Source: Acidithiobacillus ferrooxidans ATCC 23270 (GTDB taxonomy: Bacteria > Pseudomonadota > Gammaproteobacteria > Acidithiobacillales > Acidithiobacillaceae). Taken from it: a stretch of 64,000 bases of DNA. Under the pieces are notes generated by a model, which worked only from the letters and a program-made list of their open reading frames with translations, did not search any database and was not told the DNA's origin. The stretch is taken from contig NC_011761.1 of the NCBI RefSeq assembly GCF_000021485.1, positions 2,386,001 to 2,450,000 of the forward strand, read 5' to 3'. Each line of letters starts with the position of its first letter. The stretch's first letter is position 1. The translations under genes were made by a program, and so were the position numbers. Of the stretch, positions 32,150-41,373 are shown piece after piece.

Positions 32150-34438
32150 TCAGTCCCCCTGCCCGAGCGCGGTCAGCAGCGGCGCGAGGTGTCCGGTGTA
32201 AGCTTCCCATTTGCCGATGGCCGAACGGTAGATGGGCTCTTTGACCTGCAGGCGGCTGGCCGTCTGCAGCATCCGGGTGTTTTCGGTAAAATCCAGGCAG
32301 CGCGGATCGTACTCCAACTTCAGGAATTGCAATATTTCCCGGATGCCGTTTTCGGGGTCGGCGACGATGTCTTCATAGCCTACGGTAATGACATCCTCCG
32401 CCATGCGGGATTGCCATTGGGCGAGGGTTTTCAGATGCGCGCGATAGTATTTTCCCAGGCTGTCGAGGTCGTGGCTGTAGGCATGGTCCCCGACCATGTT
32501 CTGCTGAAATATGGAAAGGCAGTTGTCGCGCGCATCGCGTCGGCAGTAAATGACTTTTGCTTCCGGGAACAGGAGTTTTGCGCTGCCCAGAAACAGAAAA
32601 TTGGTGGGCAGCTTGTCGATAAAGTATCGGCTTCCGGTCCATCGGTGCCGGATCCTGTCCAGATACCATTGGCGAATTGCGCCGATGTGATCCGTCAGGT
32701 TTTCGGAGTCGAGGCGCAGGCTCCGCAGTTTGGCGGCGGCCTGGGGAAGATGCCGGAGTTCGCCAAGGCCGTCGATGTCGGCGTGCATGTCCAACATCTG
32801 ATGCAGCAGACTGGTTCCGGACCGGGGCATGCCGACGATGAACAAGGGGGTCGGACCGTTTGGCGTCGCCACCGCCATGCGGCCCTTCCAGCGATCATAC
32901 CTGTCCAGGTCATTCCGCAGGGTGTCGGCCATGGCCTGGAAATCGAAGGGTTCGACCTTTTGCAGCATCTGATGTCCCTGACGGTAACAGGCGAACGCTT
33001 TGGCGTATTGCCGATGGCTGTGGTGGTGGTTTCCGGCAATGAACCAGGCGTTGACGGCGTAATTTTCCCCTTCTCCGCCGCTTTCCCATGACAACAGTGG
33101 TTCTATCAGTGCGAAAGATTCCGCGTAATTTTTCTGTCGTTGGAGTATCTCGGCAAGGGCGACCCGCACCCGAAGGTCGGTGGGCGCCAGATTCCCGGCC
33201 TTCCGCAGAGTCGTTTCGGCAGCCTCGACCTCGCCCAGTTTCTCCAGGCAGATCGCCAGGTTCACCAGCGCTGCGGCGTTGTCCGGCTGGTTTTCGAGCA
33301 GCTTGCGGATCATGCCCTCTGCCGTCCGGCATTCTCCCATGTGGATCAGGGCAACGCTCAGATGAAATTGCGCATCCGCAGACTCCGGCAGAAGTTCCAG
33401 CGCCCTGTGGAAGGTCTCCACCGCCTCATCCACATACTTCAATTGAAACAGTGCCCGCCCTGACAAGATGAGGGCATCGACATGGTCAGGCTTCAGGTTT
33501 AACGTGTGCAGCAGCACTTCCAGGGTTTCGGGATAACGACCCTGCTGGAACAGCAGGGTACCCAGAGGATAGCGGAGAGAATGGCTCTGGGGATGATCGG
33601 CGATGGCGGATCGAATGTACGCCTCGGCTTCCCGTTCGCGTTGCTGTGCCACGAGATTCTGAAAAATATAATGTCCGACATCCGCATGCACGGAATAGGT
33701 ATCGGCGGTTCTTCTGAATATTTCTTCCGCTTCGGTCAACCGGCCCTGCTCCTGCAGGGCGATTCCCAGACCGATCAGCAGCGACGGATTTTCGCCGTAC
33801 AGATGCATCCGCCGCCGGAACAGGGCTTCGGCGCCGCAATGGTCGCCGGTGGCCAACGCGAGCATATTCCTGTGATGCAGGGCGACGGCGTGGTTGGGGT
33901 CCGTGTCCAGCGCCTTGTCCAATAACACCCGCGCGTCTTCCTGCCGGCCCTGCTGCGCCAGCGTGACGCCCAACTGGACGAGGCAATCCAGACATTCCGG
34001 GCTGCGCGCCAGCGCTTCGCGAAAGGCACGTTCCGCTTCCGGGAAACGCTGGCAGGCGAGGAGCAGGAGCCCGTAGTTATACCATGCGGGCACGAAATCG
34101 GGCTTCGACGCGATGGCTGCGAGGTAAAGTTCTTCGGCGGCCACCAATTTGTTTTGATGAAACAATATGAGTGCGAGATTACTGAGGGTATCCGTGTGGT
34201 GACCATCCACGGCAAGCGCCGCCCTGAATGCGCGTTCGGCCAGGTCCAGTCTGGCACTTCCGGCCGTGGCCTGCCCTATGGTGGTGAGGAGGTTTATTTT
34301 TTCCGCCGCCGGGATGGCCGTTGCCTGTTCGATCAGCGTGATCGCGTCACCGTATTTTTGTTGGGAATAGTGGCTTTTTATGGCTTCCAGGGCAACATGA
34401 GCGGCGTCTTTTCCCGAGGGGTCGCGTTTTTTAAACAT
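32150..34438 (-). CDS. TPR-repeat protein with C-terminal sulfotransferase domain
   Basis: A 762-aa two-part protein. Residues ~1-490 are tandem TPR units (at least 11). The C-terminal domain is a sulfotransferase-3 type: 5'-phosphosulfate loop PLFIVGMPRSGTSLLHQML at ~531 and 3'-phosphate motif VIYCRRDARDNCLSIFQQN at ~631. It should move a sulfo group from PAPS onto an acceptor such as a glycan, lipid or tyrosine. The TPR part probably holds the acceptor. Similar TPR-sulfotransferases are widespread in proteobacteria but largely uncharacterised. It stands alone, converging with the GNAT gene. Confidence 0.92.
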   Translation of the reverse strand: MFKKRDPSGKDAAHVALEAIKSHYSQQKYGDAITLIEQATAIPAAEKINLLTTIGQATAGSARLDLAERAFRAALAVDGHHTDTLSNLALILFHQNKLVAAEELYLAAIASKPDFVPAWYNYGLLLLACQRFPEAERAFREALARSPECLDCLVQLGVTLAQQGRQEDARVLLDKALDTDPNHAVALHHRNMLALATGDHCGAEALFRRRMHLYGENPSLLIGLGIALQEQGRLTEAEEIFRRTADTYSVHADVGHYIFQNLVAQQREREAEAYIRSAIADHPQSHSLRYPLGTLLFQQGRYPETLEVLLHTLNLKPDHVDALILSGRALFQLKYVDEAVETFHRALELLPESADAQFHLSVALIHMGECRTAEGMIRKLLENQPDNAAALVNLAICLEKLGEVEAAETTLRKAGNLAPTDLRVRVALAEILQRQKNYAESFALIEPLLSWESGGEGENYAVNAWFIAGNHHHSHRQYAKAFACYRQGHQMLQKVEPFDFQAMADTLRNDLDRYDRWKGRMAVATPNGPTPLFIVGMPRSGTSLLHQMLDMHADIDGLGELRHLPQAAAKLRSLRLDSENLTDHIGAIRQWYLDRIRHRWTGSRYFIDKLPTNFLFLGSAKLLFPEAKVIYCRRDARDNCLSIFQQNMVGDHAYSHDLDSLGKYYRAHLKTLAQWQSRMAEDVITVGYEDIVADPENGIREILQFLKLEYDPRCLDFTENTRMLQTASRLQVKEPIYRSAIGKWEAYTGHLAPLLTALGQGD

Positions 34439-35009: not shown

Positions 35010-35037
35010 TTGACGAACCCAATATATGTGCTAAATT
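35010..35037 (+). promoter_or_regulatory. Candidate sigma-70 promoter of nrdD
   Basis: TTGACG (35010-35015) and TAAATT (35032-35037) with a 16-base spacer lie in a locally AT-rich stretch 78 bases before the nrdD start. No clear FNR box (TTGAT-N4-ATCAA) was found. Confidence 0.5.
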
Positions 35038-35114
35038 ATCTATTGAGATGTCTATATATTGTGTTCTACCGTTCCGAGACGCGACAGCGCCGGTTCGGTG
35101 CCGGTCGGGAGAAT

Positions 35115-36896
35115 ATGGCGATGAACGATTCTTCGGTGTTGCAGCGAAACGGCGCAAGGGTACCTTTTGATCCAAAGCGATTGCGCGGGGATCGCCAGGC
35201 GATGGTAGACGCCATCACTTCCGTGAATGAGTACCTGGATCGGGAGGATTGGCGGATCAACGCCAATGCCAACCAGGGTTATTCCCTGGGGGGCCTGATC
35301 CTGAACATTGCCGGGAAAGTCACCGCGAACTACTGGCTGAGCCATGTCTATCCCGAAAAAATCGGTGCCGCCCACCGCGAGGCCGACCTGCATATCCATG
35401 ATCTCGACATGTTGGCCGGTTATTGTGCCGGATGGTCCCTCCGCACCCTTTTGCAGGAGGGTTTTAACGGCGTACCGGGAAAGGTGGAGGCGGCACCGCC
35501 GCGTCACCTGTCGAGCGCCGTCGGGCAGATGGTCAACTTCCTCGGCACCCTGCAGAACGAATGGGCAGGCGCACAGGCCTTCAGCTCCTTTGATACCTAT
35601 CTGGCGCCGTTCGTCCGCAAGGATGGCTTGTCCTACCGCGAGATTCGCCAAAACATCCAGGAATTCATCTATAACCTGAATGTCCCTTCGCGCTGGGGTG
35701 GCCAGACGCCGTTCACGAATGTCACCTTCGATTGGGTTTGCCCTGACGATCTGAAGGAACAGGTTCCCGTCATCGGCGGAGAGGAGATGCCTTTCCGTTA
35801 CGGCGATCTGCAGGCCGAAATGGAACTGATCAATCAGGCTTATATCGAGGTCATGAGCGAAGGCGACGCCAGGGGACGGGTTTTTACTTTTCCCATACCC
35901 ACCTACAACATAACGTCTGATTTTCCGTGGGATTCGGAGAATGCCGAAAGGCTGTTCGCCATGACTGCCAAATACGGCCTGCCCTACTTTCAGAATTTTA
36001 TCAATTCCGAGTTGCAGCCCAACATGGTGCGCTCCATGTGTTGTCGCCTGCAGCTCGACCTGCGTGAACTGCTCAAACGTGGGAATGGTCTTTTCGGGTC
36101 CTCGGAACAGACCGGTTCCATCGGCGTGGTGACCATCAATTGTGCCAGGCTGGGCTATCTCCATAAAAACGATTCGGAAGGTCTTTTCCGTCGCCTGGAC
36201 GCGCTCACGGAAATGGCGAAAGAAAGTCTGGAGATCAAACGCAAAGTCATCCAGAGACAAATGGACACCGGTCTTTTCCCGTACTCCAAGCGCTATCTGG
36301 GTACCTTACGCAACCATTTCTCCACCATAGGCGTGAATGGGATCCATGAAATGATCCGCAACTTCACCGATGACCGCGAAAACATCACCACCCCTGCCGG
36401 ATATGCCCTCGCCGTTCGTTTTCTCGACCATATCAGAGAACGCATGGTGGCTTTTCAGGAAGAAACCGGCCACATGTACAACCTCGAGGCAACCCCTGCG
36501 GAAGGCACCACCTATCGTTTCGCCAAAGAGGATCGGAAGCGCTTTCCCGATATTTTACAGGCAGGTCTCCCGGATAAGCCGTACTACACCAATTCATCAC
36601 AACTGCCCGTAGGCTTTACGGACGACCCTTTCGAGGCCATGGAACGCCAGGAGGCGTTACAGGCGAAATACACCGGCGGAACCGTTCTTCACCTGTATAT
36701 GGGGGATCGCGTCTCCAGCACCGAAGCCTGCAAGCGCCTGGTGCGCCGCGCACTGGAACGTTTTCGCCTGCCCTACATTACGGTGACGCCGACCTTTTCC
36801 ATCTGCCCGGTGCACGGATATCTATCGGGAGAACATCCATTCTGTCCGATCTGTGATGAAGAACGACTTGCTGAAAAACGGCGGCATTCCGCCTGA
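35115..36896 (+). CDS. nrdD: Anaerobic ribonucleotide reductase, catalytic body without glycyl-radical tail
   Basis: A 593-aa class III reductase that makes deoxynucleotides without oxygen. ATG at 35115 (GGGAG upstream; second ATG at 35121 also possible). It lacks the usual ~100-residue N-terminal ATP-cone, starting almost directly at the core. Core motifs include ADLHIHDLD, SMCCRLQLDLRELL and GSIGVVTINCARLGYL. The C-terminus has the zinc site region TFSICPVHGYLSGEHPFCPIC and then stops after DEERLAEKRRHSA, before the R-x-x-G-Y glycyl-radical segment. That segment is encoded by the next gene. In normal NrdD it would follow directly. Confidence 0.93.
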   Translation: MAMNDSSVLQRNGARVPFDPKRLRGDRQAMVDAITSVNEYLDREDWRINANANQGYSLGGLILNIAGKVTANYWLSHVYPEKIGAAHREADLHIHDLDMLAGYCAGWSLRTLLQEGFNGVPGKVEAAPPRHLSSAVGQMVNFLGTLQNEWAGAQAFSSFDTYLAPFVRKDGLSYREIRQNIQEFIYNLNVPSRWGGQTPFTNVTFDWVCPDDLKEQVPVIGGEEMPFRYGDLQAEMELINQAYIEVMSEGDARGRVFTFPIPTYNITSDFPWDSENAERLFAMTAKYGLPYFQNFINSELQPNMVRSMCCRLQLDLRELLKRGNGLFGSSEQTGSIGVVTINCARLGYLHKNDSEGLFRRLDALTEMAKESLEIKRKVIQRQMDTGLFPYSKRYLGTLRNHFSTIGVNGIHEMIRNFTDDRENITTPAGYALAVRFLDHIRERMVAFQEETGHMYNLEATPAEGTTYRFAKEDRKRFPDILQAGLPDKPYYTNSSQLPVGFTDDPFEAMERQEALQAKYTGGTVLHLYMGDRVSSTEACKRLVRRALERFRLPYITVTPTFSICPVHGYLSGEHPFCPICDEERLAEKRRHSA

Positions 36897-36915
36897 ACCG
36901 AGAAAGGAGAACATC

Positions 36916-37122
36916 ATGTATCCTGAAATGACGAACCAAAATCCTCTTGAAATGGAACTGGCGGATGACGAAAGACAACCCTGCGAGGTTTGGACGCGGG
37001 TCATGGGTTACCACCGACCGACTTCTTCTTTCAATATAGGCAAGCAAAGCGAGCATTCGGAGCGCAAATGCTTTGTGGAGACCGGGAAGCCGGATACGGT
37101 CGTGTCGCGGCCGGTGCATTGA
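36916..37122 (+). CDS. Stand-alone glycyl-radical domain of NrdD
   Basis: A 68-aa protein starting at 36916 after AAAGGAG (6-base spacing). The central part, CEVWTRVMGYHRPTSSFN followed by IGKQSEHSERKCF, is the C-terminal glycyl-radical segment of class III reductases; the radical Gly is in RVMGY. It is in a different frame from nrdD, 19 bases after that stop, with its own ribosome site, so this is a real gene split rather than a simple frameshift. It should dock onto the NrdD body and be activated by NrdG, rather as the E. coli GrcA spare-part protein does for pyruvate formate-lyase. Confidence 0.88.
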   Translation: MYPEMTNQNPLEMELADDERQPCEVWTRVMGYHRPTSSFNIGKQSEHSERKCFVETGKPDTVVSRPVH

Positions 37123-37129
37123 CGCGGCG

Positions 37130-37852
37130 ATGAGCGAAGCAGCCACCACGGTGGACATCGGGTTACAACCCCTACCACCATTGGGCGGTTTCGCGCGGTT
37201 CAGTACGGTGGATTATCCCGGACATTTATGTGCCGTGCTATACACGCAGGGCTGCCCATGCCGCTGCCGCTACTGCCATAATCCGCATCTGCAGCCGGGG
37301 CGTGGCCACTCCGGTATATCATGGCCGGCCATCATGGCCTGGCTGGCCACCCGAGCGGGATTACTGGATGCGGTGGCGTTTTGTGGCGGCGAACCCACCG
37401 CTCATAAATCGTTACGGGCGGCACTTCGGCAGGTGCGGGCGCTGGGATTTGGCACCGCCCTGCACACATCCGGAATATATCCCTACAACTTTTCGCAAAT
37501 GCTGCCTTATGTCGATTGGGTAGGCTTTGATGTCAAGGCGCCCCCCGCCCGTTATGCCGCCGTCACCGGCGTACCGGGAAGCGAGGTCCGGGTGCGGGAC
37601 TCCATGGAATGGTTGTTGTCCGGCAATGTGGCTTATGAAATCAGAACCACGGTACACCCGGCCATACTCGACACTGCGGACCTGATCGCGATAGCGCGCT
37701 GGCTGGAGCTTCTGGGAGTTTCCCGCTGGGTACTGCAATCCTTCAACCCGGCAGGATGCGTGAATGGGGATCTGGTGACCAGCTACGCGCCGATCGACCA
37801 TGAACTGCTCGATGAGTTGCGTGGATACGTGCCCGACATCTCGGTGAGATAG
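37130..37852 (+). CDS. nrdG: Anaerobic ribonucleotide reductase activase (radical SAM)
   Basis: A 240-aa radical-SAM activating enzyme that generates the glycyl radical on the reductase. The [4Fe-4S] motif is CPCRCRYCHN: Cys42, Cys46, Cys49 in CxxxCxxC form. GGEP (SAM binding) follows at ~92. The N-terminus GGFARFSTVDYPGHLCAVLYTQGC is typical of this NrdG subtype. ATG at 37130 is 7 bases after the preceding stop; the ribosome site is weak, suggesting translational coupling. It completes the nrdD / radical-domain / nrdG operon and converges on the lipoate-ligase gene. Confidence 0.93.
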   Translation: MSEAATTVDIGLQPLPPLGGFARFSTVDYPGHLCAVLYTQGCPCRCRYCHNPHLQPGRGHSGISWPAIMAWLATRAGLLDAVAFCGGEPTAHKSLRAALRQVRALGFGTALHTSGIYPYNFSQMLPYVDWVGFDVKAPPARYAAVTGVPGSEVRVRDSMEWLLSGNVAYEIRTTVHPAILDTADLIAIARWLELLGVSRWVLQSFNPAGCVNGDLVTSYAPIDHELLDELRGYVPDISVR

Positions 37853-37860
37853 GCCGCGGG

Positions 37861-39393
37861 CTAATGACAGGCGTTGCTCTGATGCGCGATATGGATCACC
37901 TTTGCCGCCACTTCCAGATCTATTGCGGATTCGGCAATGAATTTACCGGAATATGCCGCCTGCTCCTGCAGGAGGTCATAACAGTTGGCACCCGCTATAT
38001 CCAGCAACAATGCCGGAATACCTGCCGCCCTGAACGCGTCTTCATGCTTGATATAAAAATTATTGCAGCACATTCCGATATAGCATCGGGTATCTTGTAG
38101 CTTGAGCGTTTTCAGTGTCTGCTCCAGATGCTCAAAGTTTTTTACGGTGGTGACCTTTAATCCCTGCCTTCCGGCCAGGTCGTATATATCACCGACGTCG
38201 CATTTTCCGCAGCGGGAGCATCCATCCTTATGCCGCCATTTGCACCATGCCGGCTTGGCGCAGTATGGCACCAGCACCGCCTCCGCCTGCGCGGCGATTT
38301 CCATGGCGTCCATATCTCCGTCAGGGTCATGGACCATGAACGAATTGGCTGCAGATGCCGTTATGGCAAGTTGTTGAGCTATCCTGTTGCGCTCGAACAG
38401 TCTGTGAAATAACTTGATGACATGGCCGGGACTGAATCCGGACATCTCCCACCGTAGATCATAAAGGAGGCTTTCCATGCGCTGTGATATTTCACTTTCC
38501 GACGCGCCGTACCATACAGACTGAATTTTTTTAAACAGGTGGTGTGGCCTGACGTAAACATTGCCACCAATTTTTGCGGAAGATATTCTGAGCTCGTCGT
38601 CCAGTGTGATGCTGCCGTGGAGTACGCCACCGGATGTCGCCAGAAAGCCACTATAAGTGCGGCCGTGATCTGGTTCAGGAAATTGCTCATGACCGCCACG
38701 CGGGCTGTGGGATACGCTGTCTATCCACGGCGTATGTACGAGGGTTTCCAAGTTGCACATTTGTGCCATGAACCGTGCCAGGGATTCCTTCAGATTTACC
38801 AGATCCGCCGCGCTCTGGTTTTGTAGCGTAGTGAAGTGGAGACCGGCTGTATGTATGCCGTCCACTGTCAGCTTCTCTTTTGGCACGCGCAATGCGCGAA
38901 GCATCGTACTGATGTCCAAGGATCTGTATAGCGTGCCATTCGCGACGATGACATCATCTTGCATTCCGACGTAGACGCTGCCCAGCTTTCTGTTGTTTGC
39001 GTAGATATCGTTTGGTTTATGGAAATAGACATTTTCGTATCCGCTACTGCTCAGGCCGTTGCAAACCGCCATGCAAAGCCTTTCCAGCCATTGCGCCATA
39101 CTGAACTCCTGCGCCTGTATGGTCAGGCTCCAGGCAACCTGGTCAGGATACAGATATGCTGTCCCGCCCCCTGTTATACGGCGGATAACCGGGATGGACC
39201 TGGCCCGACAATAAGCCGTTCGCACGGCAAAGTCCTTGTCCTCGAAGGCGCCCAGGGCCACCGCGTGGCCATTTTCATAAAAACGTAACATTGGTAGCGA
39301 TTCCATGCGCGTAACGATCATCTGATGCGCATCGAGAATGATATTATCTGCGGCATCCCGAAGCCCGCTATCTCCCCATAACAGCTTATCCAT
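37861..39393 (-). CDS. Lipoate-protein ligase A fused to a DUF116 domain
   Basis: A 510-aa fusion. ATG at 39393 after AAGGAGG. Residues ~1-255 are a LplA/BPL-type ligase: LRFYENGHAVALGAFEDKDF, RRITGGGTAYLYPDQVAWSL (the R-R-x-x-G-G-G substrate motif) and NDIYANNRKLGSVYVGMQDD with the catalytic Lys. Residues ~255-360 form the accessory part. The C-terminal ~150 residues match DUF116: CAKPAWCKWRHKDGCSRCGKC, then CYIGMCCNNFY and LDIAGANCYDL, many Cys suggesting an Fe-S or metal site. The gene is the last of the ubiT-ubiU-ubiV unit (14 bases after ubiV). The acceptor protein is not in this window. Confidence 0.85.
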   Translation of the reverse strand: MDKLLWGDSGLRDAADNIILDAHQMIVTRMESLPMLRFYENGHAVALGAFEDKDFAVRTAYCRARSIPVIRRITGGGTAYLYPDQVAWSLTIQAQEFSMAQWLERLCMAVCNGLSSSGYENVYFHKPNDIYANNRKLGSVYVGMQDDVIVANGTLYRSLDISTMLRALRVPKEKLTVDGIHTAGLHFTTLQNQSAADLVNLKESLARFMAQMCNLETLVHTPWIDSVSHSPRGGHEQFPEPDHGRTYSGFLATSGGVLHGSITLDDELRISSAKIGGNVYVRPHHLFKKIQSVWYGASESEISQRMESLLYDLRWEMSGFSPGHVIKLFHRLFERNRIAQQLAITASAANSFMVHDPDGDMDAMEIAAQAEAVLVPYCAKPAWCKWRHKDGCSRCGKCDVGDIYDLAGRQGLKVTTVKNFEHLEQTLKTLKLQDTRCYIGMCCNNFYIKHEDAFRAAGIPALLLDIAGANCYDLLQEQAAYSGKFIAESAIDLEVAAKVIHIAHQSNACH

Positions 39394-39406
39394 AACCCCT
39401 CCTTCC

Positions 39407-40285
39407 TCAATGTCCCTGCACAGGGCTGAACTGCATGCCGGGTTTGCCGTACCAATAGCCGTTACAGGCTGGCGAGCCATATTCAACGGGGGGGCTGATT
39501 TCTCCATTCAACACCGCATGGAATGCCCGTATGACGGACTCGGTGGCGGTAAGTTGCGGGGATATGCGGACGATGTCCATGCCCATTTCCGACATGGCCA
39601 CCGTCTCATTCAAGAGGTTGCACGGAATGCCGGACTGAAGCTGAATGCCATTGATGGTAAACAGGCGTTCCTGCTCCTGGGTGAATAGCGCACGCCCCTC
39701 CGGATCCTTTATGCATCGCAGTTCACACGCATCCTTACCGACGTTATCCGCCCGGGCGGTGAAACAGCGGGCGGAAAATGACAGAGGCAGATAACCATAG
39801 GCAAACGCCTCGGTTTCCATGGTCTCAGGACGCGTGTTTTGTAACATGGCGATGGTCGTGGCCGGCAACTCCACCGGAGGAATCCATCGCCTGCCTCCCA
39901 GATCGGCCAGGAGCGACAAGGTTTCGGCGTTATAACAATTGATATGGGGTCCGATGACGAAGGGACCCCGCCCCGCCAGCAGATGAACCGCCGACATGTC
40001 GTTGGCTTCCACCAGGTAATGGGTATTCGCACAAATCCTTTCCAGTTGCAGAAGGTCTGAATTGGCTTCCAGAAGGGCCAGTGTGGACAGCACGACCTCC
40101 TTGCCTGCATCGGTCAGACGCGCCGCGATGTCGAGCCAGTCGGCGCTGCGCAGGGCGCGTCGTTTTGCGCACACGGTCTCGCCCAGATAAACGATGTCCA
40201 CCGGCCAATGTTCTGCGCGCCGGTAAAACTGCTCTATGTTTTCCTTCGACCAGTAATAGTGAATCGGGCCTAGCGAGATCTTCAT
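39407..40285 (-). CDS. ubiV: Oxygen-independent ubiquinone hydroxylation protein UbiV
   Basis: A 292-aa U32-peptidase-like protein. ATG at 40285 after GGAGATACGGAGA. It has the [4Fe-4S]-binding Cys in the known UbiV pattern: Cys39, then Cys174, Cys187, Cys191, with CFTARADNVGKDACELRC giving the same spacing as E. coli UbiV (180/193/197). With UbiU and UbiT it performs the three ring hydroxylations of ubiquinone synthesis without oxygen. It begins 77 bases after ubiU. Confidence 0.95.
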   Translation of the reverse strand: MKISLGPIHYYWSKENIEQFYRRAEHWPVDIVYLGETVCAKRRALRSADWLDIAARLTDAGKEVVLSTLALLEANSDLLQLERICANTHYLVEANDMSAVHLLAGRGPFVIGPHINCYNAETLSLLADLGGRRWIPPVELPATTIAMLQNTRPETMETEAFAYGYLPLSFSARCFTARADNVGKDACELRCIKDPEGRALFTQEQERLFTINGIQLQSGIPCNLLNETVAMSEMGMDIVRISPQLTATESVIRAFHAVLNGEISPPVEYGSPACNGYWYGKPGMQFSPVQGH

Positions 40286-40362
40286 TCTCCGTATCTCCTT
40301 ATTGAAGGGCGCGGTCTTGTTGTGTAAAAACCCATTACGAAGGCGGGCATACCGGACGGACA

Positions 40363-41373
40363 TCAATGCCAGGGCCGGTGATAGGCCCCGAGCGTATGCG
40401 TCTGTCCTTCGGAAAGACGATCGAGAACCGCGGTCCATTGGTTTCTGACCAGATATCGCGCAGGATCGGCGGCGCAGGTATCTATGGCTTCGCGCAGAAC
40501 GCGGGCGACGGACGCCACGTAGGCCGGACTTCGCTGCCGGCCTTCCACCTTGATGGCGGCTATGCCGTGGTGCAACAAATCCGGCAATACATCCAGTATG
40601 TTCAGGCTGGTAGGCTCCTCGATGGCGTAATAGGCCTGGGCGTCTGTGTAGTACCGCCCCTTGCACAAAGTGGGGTAACCAGCGGCCTCATTCAGGCCGT
40701 GACGGTCGATCAATACGCCGTTCAGGCGAGACTCGCGGCCCAGGGCCGTCTCCTCCCAGCGTACGGACTCCGCTGGGGAACAAACGCCGCTGGCATTCGG
40801 GGAGCGTCCCGTAATGTAAGATGACAAGGCGCAACGGCCTTCCACCATGACGCACAGGCTTCCATAGCCAAATACCTCGATCTCCACCGGGCTGTTGGCT
40901 GTGGTGTGCCAAAGTTGTTGCAAGGACAGGACCCTGGGCAGAACGGCACGTTGAATGCCAAATCGCTGGTGGTAGAACTCCAGGGCCTTGTAAGTGGTGG
41001 CGGATGCCTGCACGGAAAGATGCAAACGGAGATTGGGGTGATGGGTTGCGGCATAACGCAGTAGTCCCGGGTCAGCCATGATCACGGCATCTATCCCCAG
41101 TTCCGCGGCGCGATCCACCGCGGTGGTCCAGATCGCCCAGTTATGTGCCTGTGGGTAGGTATTGATGGCGAGAAGCACCTTTTTGCCGGCGCGATGCGCA
41201 TATTCCATGCCTCGCGCGGTCTCTTCCGGACCAAAGTTCAGTCCCGGGAAATTGCGGGCATTGGTATCGTCGCGAAAGCCGATATATACGGCGTCTGCAC
41301 CATTATCGACCGCGGCTTTCAGGGCAGGCAGTCCCCCAGCGGGGCAGACCAATTCGGGTTTGCGGTGGTTCAT
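40363..41373 (-). CDS. ubiU: Oxygen-independent ubiquinone hydroxylation protein UbiU
   Basis: A 336-aa U32-family protein. N-terminus ELVCPAGGLPALKAAVDNGADAVYIGF is typical. Cys174, Cys181, Cys198 and Cys237 are spaced 7, 17 and 39 apart, exactly as the four [4Fe-4S] ligands of E. coli UbiU (169/176/193/232). UbiU pairs with UbiV and takes hydroxyl groups from prephenate rather than O2. It begins 30 bases after ubiT, so one leftward operon is likely. Confidence 0.96.
   Translation of the reverse strand: MNHRKPELVCPAGGLPALKAAVDNGADAVYIGFRDDTNARNFPGLNFGPEETARGMEYAHRAGKKVLLAINTYPQAHNWAIWTTAVDRAAELGIDAVIMADPGLLRYAATHHPNLRLHLSVQASATTYKALEFYHQRFGIQRAVLPRVLSLQQLWHTTANSPVEIEVFGYGSLCVMVEGRCALSSYITGRSPNASGVCSPAESVRWEETALGRESRLNGVLIDRHGLNEAAGYPTLCKGRYYTDAQAYYAIEEPTSLNILDVLPDLLHHGIAAIKVEGRQRSPAYVASVARVLREAIDTCAADPARYLVRNQWTAVLDRLSEGQTHTLGAYHRPWH

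Follow-up and report, generated by a model that had tools for sequence, protein, structure and literature searches.

Class III ribonucleotide reductase (RNR) is treated as a one-chain enzyme, which is killed by oxygen cutting at its radical glycine. The locus studied here raises the question of whether such an enzyme can also be made of two polypeptides, with the radical glycine placed on a small protein of its own. The window, that is, the whole stretch of 64,000 nucleotides that was analysed, covers positions 2386001-2450000 of the 2.98 Mb genome of Acidithiobacillus ferrooxidans ATCC 23270 (one contig), and the features on which the question turns are given below with their positions in the window.

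35017-35032 and 35049-35064, plus strand: two NrdR-box-like palindromes upstream of the body, their starts being 32 nt apart.
35115..36896, plus strand: NrdD catalytic body of 593 aa, without the glycyl-radical segment and without the ATP-cone; PF13597 positions 2-531, 589.5 bits.
36804..36854, plus strand: C-terminal zinc site of the body, in which C564, H567 and C577 are invariant and C580 is nearly so (51 aligned bodies).
36897..36915, plus strand: intergenic gap of 19 nt, with AAAGGAG at 36903-36909, 6 nt 5′ of the ATG.
36916..37122, plus strand: glycyl-radical tail protein of 68 aa, in a frame that differs from that of the body; the codon of the radical Gly31 lies at 37006-37008.
37130..37852, plus strand: nrdG, a radical-SAM activase of 240 aa; TIGR02495 (NrdG2) with 183.9 bits (cut-off 131.15), and PF04055.

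A sequence-only reading of this DNA had claimed that the nrdD frame stops after the zinc motif and that the radical segment follows 19 bases later in another frame, with a ribosome site of its own. Both statements held, as the body matched PF13597 only to position 531 (and the PRK08270 model over positions 89-650), and the small ORF carrying RVMGY matched positions 530-562 of PF13597 (31.9 bits, cut-off 26.2). In particular, no RxxGY was located in the body chain after the zinc motif, the motif being found in the separate ORF (in full, EVWTRVMGYHRP), and the genome encodes an NrdD-type glycyl-radical segment beside NrdG. The same reading had named another complete NrdD, or a continuous frame in relatives, as findings that would refute a genuine split. 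No further PF13597 or NrdD match was found in the 2.98 Mb genome besides the body and the tail, which rules out a second complete NrdD, and the split was present in all ten NrdD-bearing genomes of the genus, with no continuous frame among them. Moreover, one ORF of the genome matched PF02867, corresponding to an RNR of another class, while PF01228 had no match in this genome, so there was no sign of PFL or GrcA. Regarding the two upstream palindromes, they scored 11 and 13 of 16 against what we take to be the NrdR-box consensus, and a pair of scores as high arose in 3 of 2000 mononucleotide shuffles; another NrdR-like site, located between them and overlapping, also scored 11.

The extent of the split architecture was then observed at increasing taxonomic distances. 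A total of 17 genomes of the genus were searched, including the ten with a split NrdD and seven without NrdD. Out of 57 relatives, 16 carried NrdD, which was split in 15 and fused in one (G043). In the class sample, 38 of 369 genomes matched PF13597, of which 28 were split, seven were fused over the whole model and three were partial, and 19 of 24 new loci were classed as split by script. As for the phylum sample, 57 of 398 genomes matched PF13597, with 41 presenting one chain over the whole model, 12 looking split in the manner of the window (including G738, where the tail is unlinked), two being split in the way of a second subtype described below (G721 and G789), and two remaining unclear or partial (G638 and G762). 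Fused NrdD was thus the commoner form in the phylum sample, while split NrdD was the commoner one in the class sample. These counts in the relatives, the class and the phylum were made by eye from printed rows, with scripts helping for the fetched loci. Furthermore, 70 of the best 80 named loci, which were gathered using the tail profile itself, showed separate body and tail ORFs on the same strand (69 of these with NrdG); the other ten had the body on the opposite strand (one), no body within 4 kb (six) or a contig end (three). Among the relatives, the tail of Acidithiobacillus ferruginosus (L043) was 94% identical to that of the window. The small ORF is already annotated as nrdD by NCBI in several records. 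Separately, NrdD matches with in-frame TAA codons were noticed in two genomes of 0.9 Mb (G638 and G607), representing either more splits or something with another explanation.

The reading frames and start sites were compared in 114 split loci out of 132 inspected, 14 duplicate views having been removed beforehand; by difference, the remaining 18 comprised seven fused loci, ten without a nearby body and one with the body on the other strand. A few genomes appear twice among the 114 (as L005 and L043, and probably as L065 and L221). The frame of the tail relative to the body was 0, 1 and 2 in 25, 48 and 41 loci, respectively, and this use of all three frames excludes a fixed frameshift. The distance between the body stop and the chosen tail start ranged from −86 to 298 nt, with a median of 30. 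The tail was also observed to have its own translation start, since a Shine-Dalgarno core preceded 113 of the 163 ATGs located 9-45 codons 5′ of the Gly motif in these loci, compared to 162 of 1808 internal body ATGs. Moreover, pN/pS for the window and ten relatives (11 loci) was 0.110 in the tail and 0.125 in the last 250 body codons, with values of 1.67 and 2.46 when the tail region of the same loci was read in the wrong frames. The tail is therefore not a chance ORF, being under purifying selection.

The AlphaFold model of the body (593 aa, mean pLDDT 76) was aligned with 21 solved class III RNR entries with Z values of 27.9-32.0 over 449-500 residues, the next row having a Z value of 20.8, and according to this model the body has the ten-stranded NrdD barrel fold. 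Five of the structure entries are taken to be T4 NrdD, whose radical residue is presumably Gly580; the aligned range stopped at residue 567 or 568 in three of them and at residue 587 in two. As the last two alignments run past Gly580, the structural end of the body match is not sharply fixed by the modelling. C104, C309 and C310, which we take to be the active-site cysteines of NrdD, were invariant in the same 51 aligned bodies as the zinc-site residues, and the role of C564, H567, C577 and C580 as zinc ligands is assumed by analogy with known class III enzymes. The catalytic half is thus intact and without the glycyl motif. On the side of the tail, the model of the protein alone was weak (mean pLDDT 74, pTM 0.39) and says little about its fold, and searching the PDB by sequence with the profile of the tail gave no match at E 0.1. 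Invariant positions were seen in an alignment of 56 tails, 26 of them viral, whose rows were chosen by motif.

The absence of the N-terminal ATP-cone from the body, also part of the earlier reading, was confirmed. A net 222 nt of a relative (L007) were missing from the window at about 35175 (blastn), the deletion being in frame, and most of the cone was gone at 35115-35180. PF03477 (ATP-cone) was present in two equally split loci (L043 and L032), and 14 of 14 other split loci compared kept the cone by eye, two of them with confirmation by Pfam, while a fused NrdD (L041) was also devoid of it. As split relatives have the cone, its loss is separate from the split, and an association between the two finds no support in view of these relatives together with the in-frame deletion. 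The loss of the cone may relieve dATP feedback.

The tail was also observed away from the body. In the family of G827, 43 of 67 genomes matched PF13597 and 40 had a split body, and all of these 40 had at least one tail, which was linked only in 24, both linked and unlinked in 12 and unlinked only in four (linked meaning on the same contig and strand and at most 600 nt apart). One of the four has its body at a contig edge (G841), and one of the 12 presents the second NrdD subtype (G837). In three genomes (G863, G873 and G876), NrdG followed ∼20-50 nt after the body stop with no tail between them; the tail of G873 was found on the same contig, 1.31 Mb from the body, and those of G863 and G876 on a different contig. 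In the case of G738, the tail was next to NrdG and ∼9 kb from the body. Furthermore, five genomes (G825, G826, G828, G829 and G831) had a linked tail and one to three further tails, and the neighbours of the extra tails in several cases seem to be ordinary chromosomal genes, as judged by eye without annotation. Draft assemblies and MAGs make up many of the genomes in which extra tails were seen. Solitary tails appeared on a plasmid of Allochromatium tepidum, which was searched whole, and on a plasmid of A. vinosum, of which 5 kb on each side were viewed. However, a spare copy is not general, given the single linked tail in 24 of the 40 family genomes and in the genome of the window. Another genome (G879) harboured two split-NrdD loci, on C41 and C135, each with its own tail.

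A different NrdD that also stops after the zinc motif was found in G836 and G837, where a separate ORF carries FERIRRITGYLVGTMDKWNNAKRAEERDRVKH, with another tail ORF of this second subtype on a second contig of G837. In the phylum sample, G721 and G789 showed the same arrangement, with an overlapping NrdG-like frame behind the tail (by eye). The zinc and glycyl motifs of the second subtype are unlike those of the subtype in the window, and fused enzymes with the second-type tail motif exist (L308, L342 and others), so the split seems, from these motifs and without a tree of the second group, to have arisen at least twice. For the first subtype, a tree of 90 body cores (of 116 bodies, after thinning) placed the 80 split rows inside one supported group of 82. 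The two fused rows in this group were L205, which was unresolved at an open fork, and L041, encoded on a plasmid of A. ferrooxidans, which nested beside the group of the window and looks like a re-fusion. This was a quick tree with warnings on the long fused rows L017 and L204; many of its rows were gathered by the tail motif of split loci, which over-samples the split form, and the tree does not resolve the origin of the split.

Tails without a body were found in viral sequences. A total of 144 relatives of the window-type tail were detected in IMG/VR, and neither a body nor NrdG appeared within 4 kb in any of the best 80 of them, although 22 of these had less than 2.2 kb upstream and the body was detected with one query body. 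In 50 window-type viral records searched whole, only the tail was present, the body being absent from all 50 and NrdG above the cut-off in none; one of these, a record of 183 kb in which radical-SAM proteins were matched weakly eight times, is possibly not a phage. The second-type tail had 253 viral relatives, and the best 80 of them comprised 53 solitary tails with at least 2.3 kb upstream, nine solitary tails with less, 12 fused NrdD, five loci with a body within 3 kb and one (L314) without R..GY, in which the Gly is kept within TGF. Whole-record searches of 50 of the 53 solitary loci again found only the tail and no body in any of the 50. Both sets of 50 records were drawn from loci lacking a nearby body, and all of these viral records may be fragments, the 100 searched whole having no stated completeness. 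The neighbours of the solitary viral tails included terminases, portals, integrases, endolysins, tail fibres and a reverse transcriptase, and in view of such neighbours many of these contigs are real phages, without every record having been checked. Among deposited phage genomes, the window tail as a query matched one of 50,697 records, two viral tails used as queries matched three records (E up to 1), and the second-type tail matched 14. The window-type tail corresponded to phrog_4132, a phage family with a profile of 179 positions listed without function, of which positions 105-156 were matched. In addition, the cultured Eggerthella phage EL753P1 (OP172808; L370 647-4080) has an annotated nrdD of 952 aa without the radical motif; the tail motif lies ∼0.5 kb downstream, is not annotated as nrdD, and has its frame interrupted within the motif as deposited.

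The reading that we regard as probable, in the absence of any biochemistry, is that of a class III RNR made of two polypeptides, in which the radical subunit would act in trans and could probably be replaced once oxygen has damaged it. The large body would provide the barrel, the active-site cysteines and the zinc site, and the 68-aa tail would provide the radical loop. With the tail docked on the body, an assembly that is itself inferred, NrdG would generate the radical on Gly31, and the tail would initiate every turnover via a thiyl radical; the activation of a separate tail by NrdG is likewise an inference. Acting in trans, the tail would not have to be encoded beside the body. Class III RNR is cleaved by oxygen at the glycyl radical (PMC3019208). 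Since the break made by oxygen in glycyl-radical proteins falls at the radical Gly, only the small tail would be destroyed, for which a fresh tail could substitute. The extra chromosomal tails and those of phages would then be spare parts for NrdD, including that of the host, although exchange after damage and the use of phage tails by hosts are deduced and have not been seen. The tail would be a constitutive part of the enzyme in split species, and a supplement in cases with extra or phage copies. A broader proposal, on which we are evenly divided, is that autonomous glycyl-radical proteins of the NrdD type form a widespread family with at least two subtypes, serving as detachable subunits of split class III RNRs and as repair parts for oxygen-damaged NrdD; phages of anaerobic bacteria would carry them alone to sustain the anaerobic dNTP supply of the host.

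A sequencing error, a recent mutation or a silent pseudogene has a negligible chance of being correct: nothing was found to support it other than a few relatives (e.g. L015) in which the tail is in the same frame after an intervening stop codon, and it is ruled out by the split in relatives and unrelated assemblies alike, by tails in all three frames at offsets of −86 to 298 nt, by the Shine-Dalgarno sites and by the selection on the tail. It is also very improbable that the body and the tail are joined into one chain by a programmed frameshift or stop read-through, as might be imagined from the closeness of the two ORFs at most split loci found; this is contradicted by the three tail frames and the ATGs mostly preceded by Shine-Dalgarno sites, and tails that exist only unlinked could not be joined in this way.

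A more serious contender, though on balance an unlikely one, is a plain gene fission, in which a neutral split would have left a fixed, permanently assembled two-subunit enzyme without any exchange, the extra tails being relics of duplication. The linked tail is the only one in 24 of the 40 split-body genomes of the family mentioned above, the genome of the window has a single tail, and the apparent re-fusion in L041 and the higher number of fused NrdD in the phylum sample indicate that a single chain works too. Nevertheless, fission alone does not sit well with tails that are only unlinked, with extra tails among seemingly ordinary chromosomal genes (by eye), with the splitting of two subtypes, or with solitary tails on phage contigs without a body. 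For these phage tails, another role can be conceived, namely as decoys or inhibitors that occupy the NrdD or NrdG of the host, or quench the radical, instead of rescuing the enzyme. Such a role, for which we see only a small chance, agrees with the presence of the tail without the body on phage contigs and with NrdG above the cut-off in 0 of 50 records. However, an inhibitor would not require the Gly and phages need dNTPs, and R..GY was kept in 79 of the 80 second-type viral loci, with the Gly retained in L314, even though several of the scan patterns lacked this motif. The Gly was also invariant in the 56 window-type tails (26 viral), a result that was partly built in by motif-based scan patterns and the filter.

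The two-polypeptide enzyme shares with the single-chain NrdD of E. coli, T4, T. maritima and P. copri the body fold, the zinc site, the active-site cysteines and the NrdG partner. It differs in that the C-terminal segment of PF13597 is held by the tail on another polypeptide, and in that this radical segment can be unlinked, present in several copies or located on phage contigs. The sequence-only reading had likened the small protein to a replaceable fuse and invited a comparison with GrcA. The former idea gains support from the unlinked, extra and solitary phage-contig tails, with no experiment showing exchange, and the latter holds as a functional analogy and fails as homology. GrcA (YfiD) and the T4 protein Y06I are, like the tail, short autonomous proteins with a radical-Gly loop, found in bacteria and a phage; PFL that oxygen has damaged recovers with YfiD or Y06I, and the same authors deemed it possible that other glycyl radical enzymes have spare parts too (PMC8683613). 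In contrast, the tails belong with NrdD, and at the level of domain matching they show no homology to GrcA: the window tail and five viral tails had PF13597, and not PF01228, as their only Pfam match, except for one weak DUF hit below the cut-off. A true GrcA was therefore rejected, neither the tails nor the genome having a PF01228 match. Moreover, the lone tail of a split genome is the sole source of the radical Gly, unlike the GrcA spare.

Other divided RNRs have been described. The class II enzyme NrdJa/NrdJb of Pseudomonas is likewise made from two consecutive ORFs (PMC4009431), but it has no glycyl radical and is cut elsewhere. Split domains have been supposed to be possibly distinct to class II (PMC9669993), which is not borne out by the present data. 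Among phage RNR genes, nrdD is the one most often split, with six cases, that of phiAS4 being of unknown cause (PMC3653736); these interruptions are introns, inteins or fragmentation of one phage nrdD, and a distinct glycyl-radical protein, translated from a start of its own, does not figure in the available part of that source. In the open-licence PMC literature, no report was found of a class III RNR that has its glycyl-radical segment on another protein, or of an NrdD spare part; subscription papers are mostly outside this scope, and one of these may already have noticed the small ORF. The proposed novelty is a class III RNR whose radical subunit can come apart from the body, GrcA-like in its inferred working and not a GrcA.

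The split is already present in the genetically tractable Cupriavidus necator H16, whose plasmid pHG1 encodes the body (676 aa, 76.19 kDa), the tail (66 aa) and NrdG consecutively. Siedow et al. (1999, J. Bacteriol.) are said to have given 76.2 kDa for the NrdD of the H16 enzyme and may mention the small ORF; this mass equals that of the body alone. NrdDG of this strain is essential for complete denitrification, as stated in PMC2864759, and H16 thus offers the strongest indication that a class III RNR in this split form is functional. In C. metallidurans CH34, the same source lists NrdDG as Rmet_5137 and Rmet_5139 only; as the CH34 locus (L036) is also split, Rmet_5138 is presumably its tail. 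Similarly, for PA1920, the NrdD of P. aeruginosa, PMC12284477 gives 76 kDa, so a small ORF is expected before PA1919. If the proposed enzyme is real, the repair of radical enzymes by exchange of a part becomes testable outside PFL, a very small phage gene (roughly 45-70 aa) is added to those for dNTP supply, and constructs of NrdD and NrdG from split species that leave out the small ORF could be without the radical residue.

Finally, several other genes were observed around the locus, all on the minus strand. Two adjoining genes of the U32 peptidase family (PF01136) were found at 39407-41373, a pair that resembles UbiU/UbiV of oxygen-independent ubiquinone synthesis, and a similar pair was seen by eye near the NrdD of G738 (L282). 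A single protein of 548 aa at 37861-39507 combines a lipoyl ligase domain (PF21948) with DUF116 (PF01976), and a protein of 762 aa at 32150-34438 has many TPR repeats with a sulfotransferase domain at its C-terminus.
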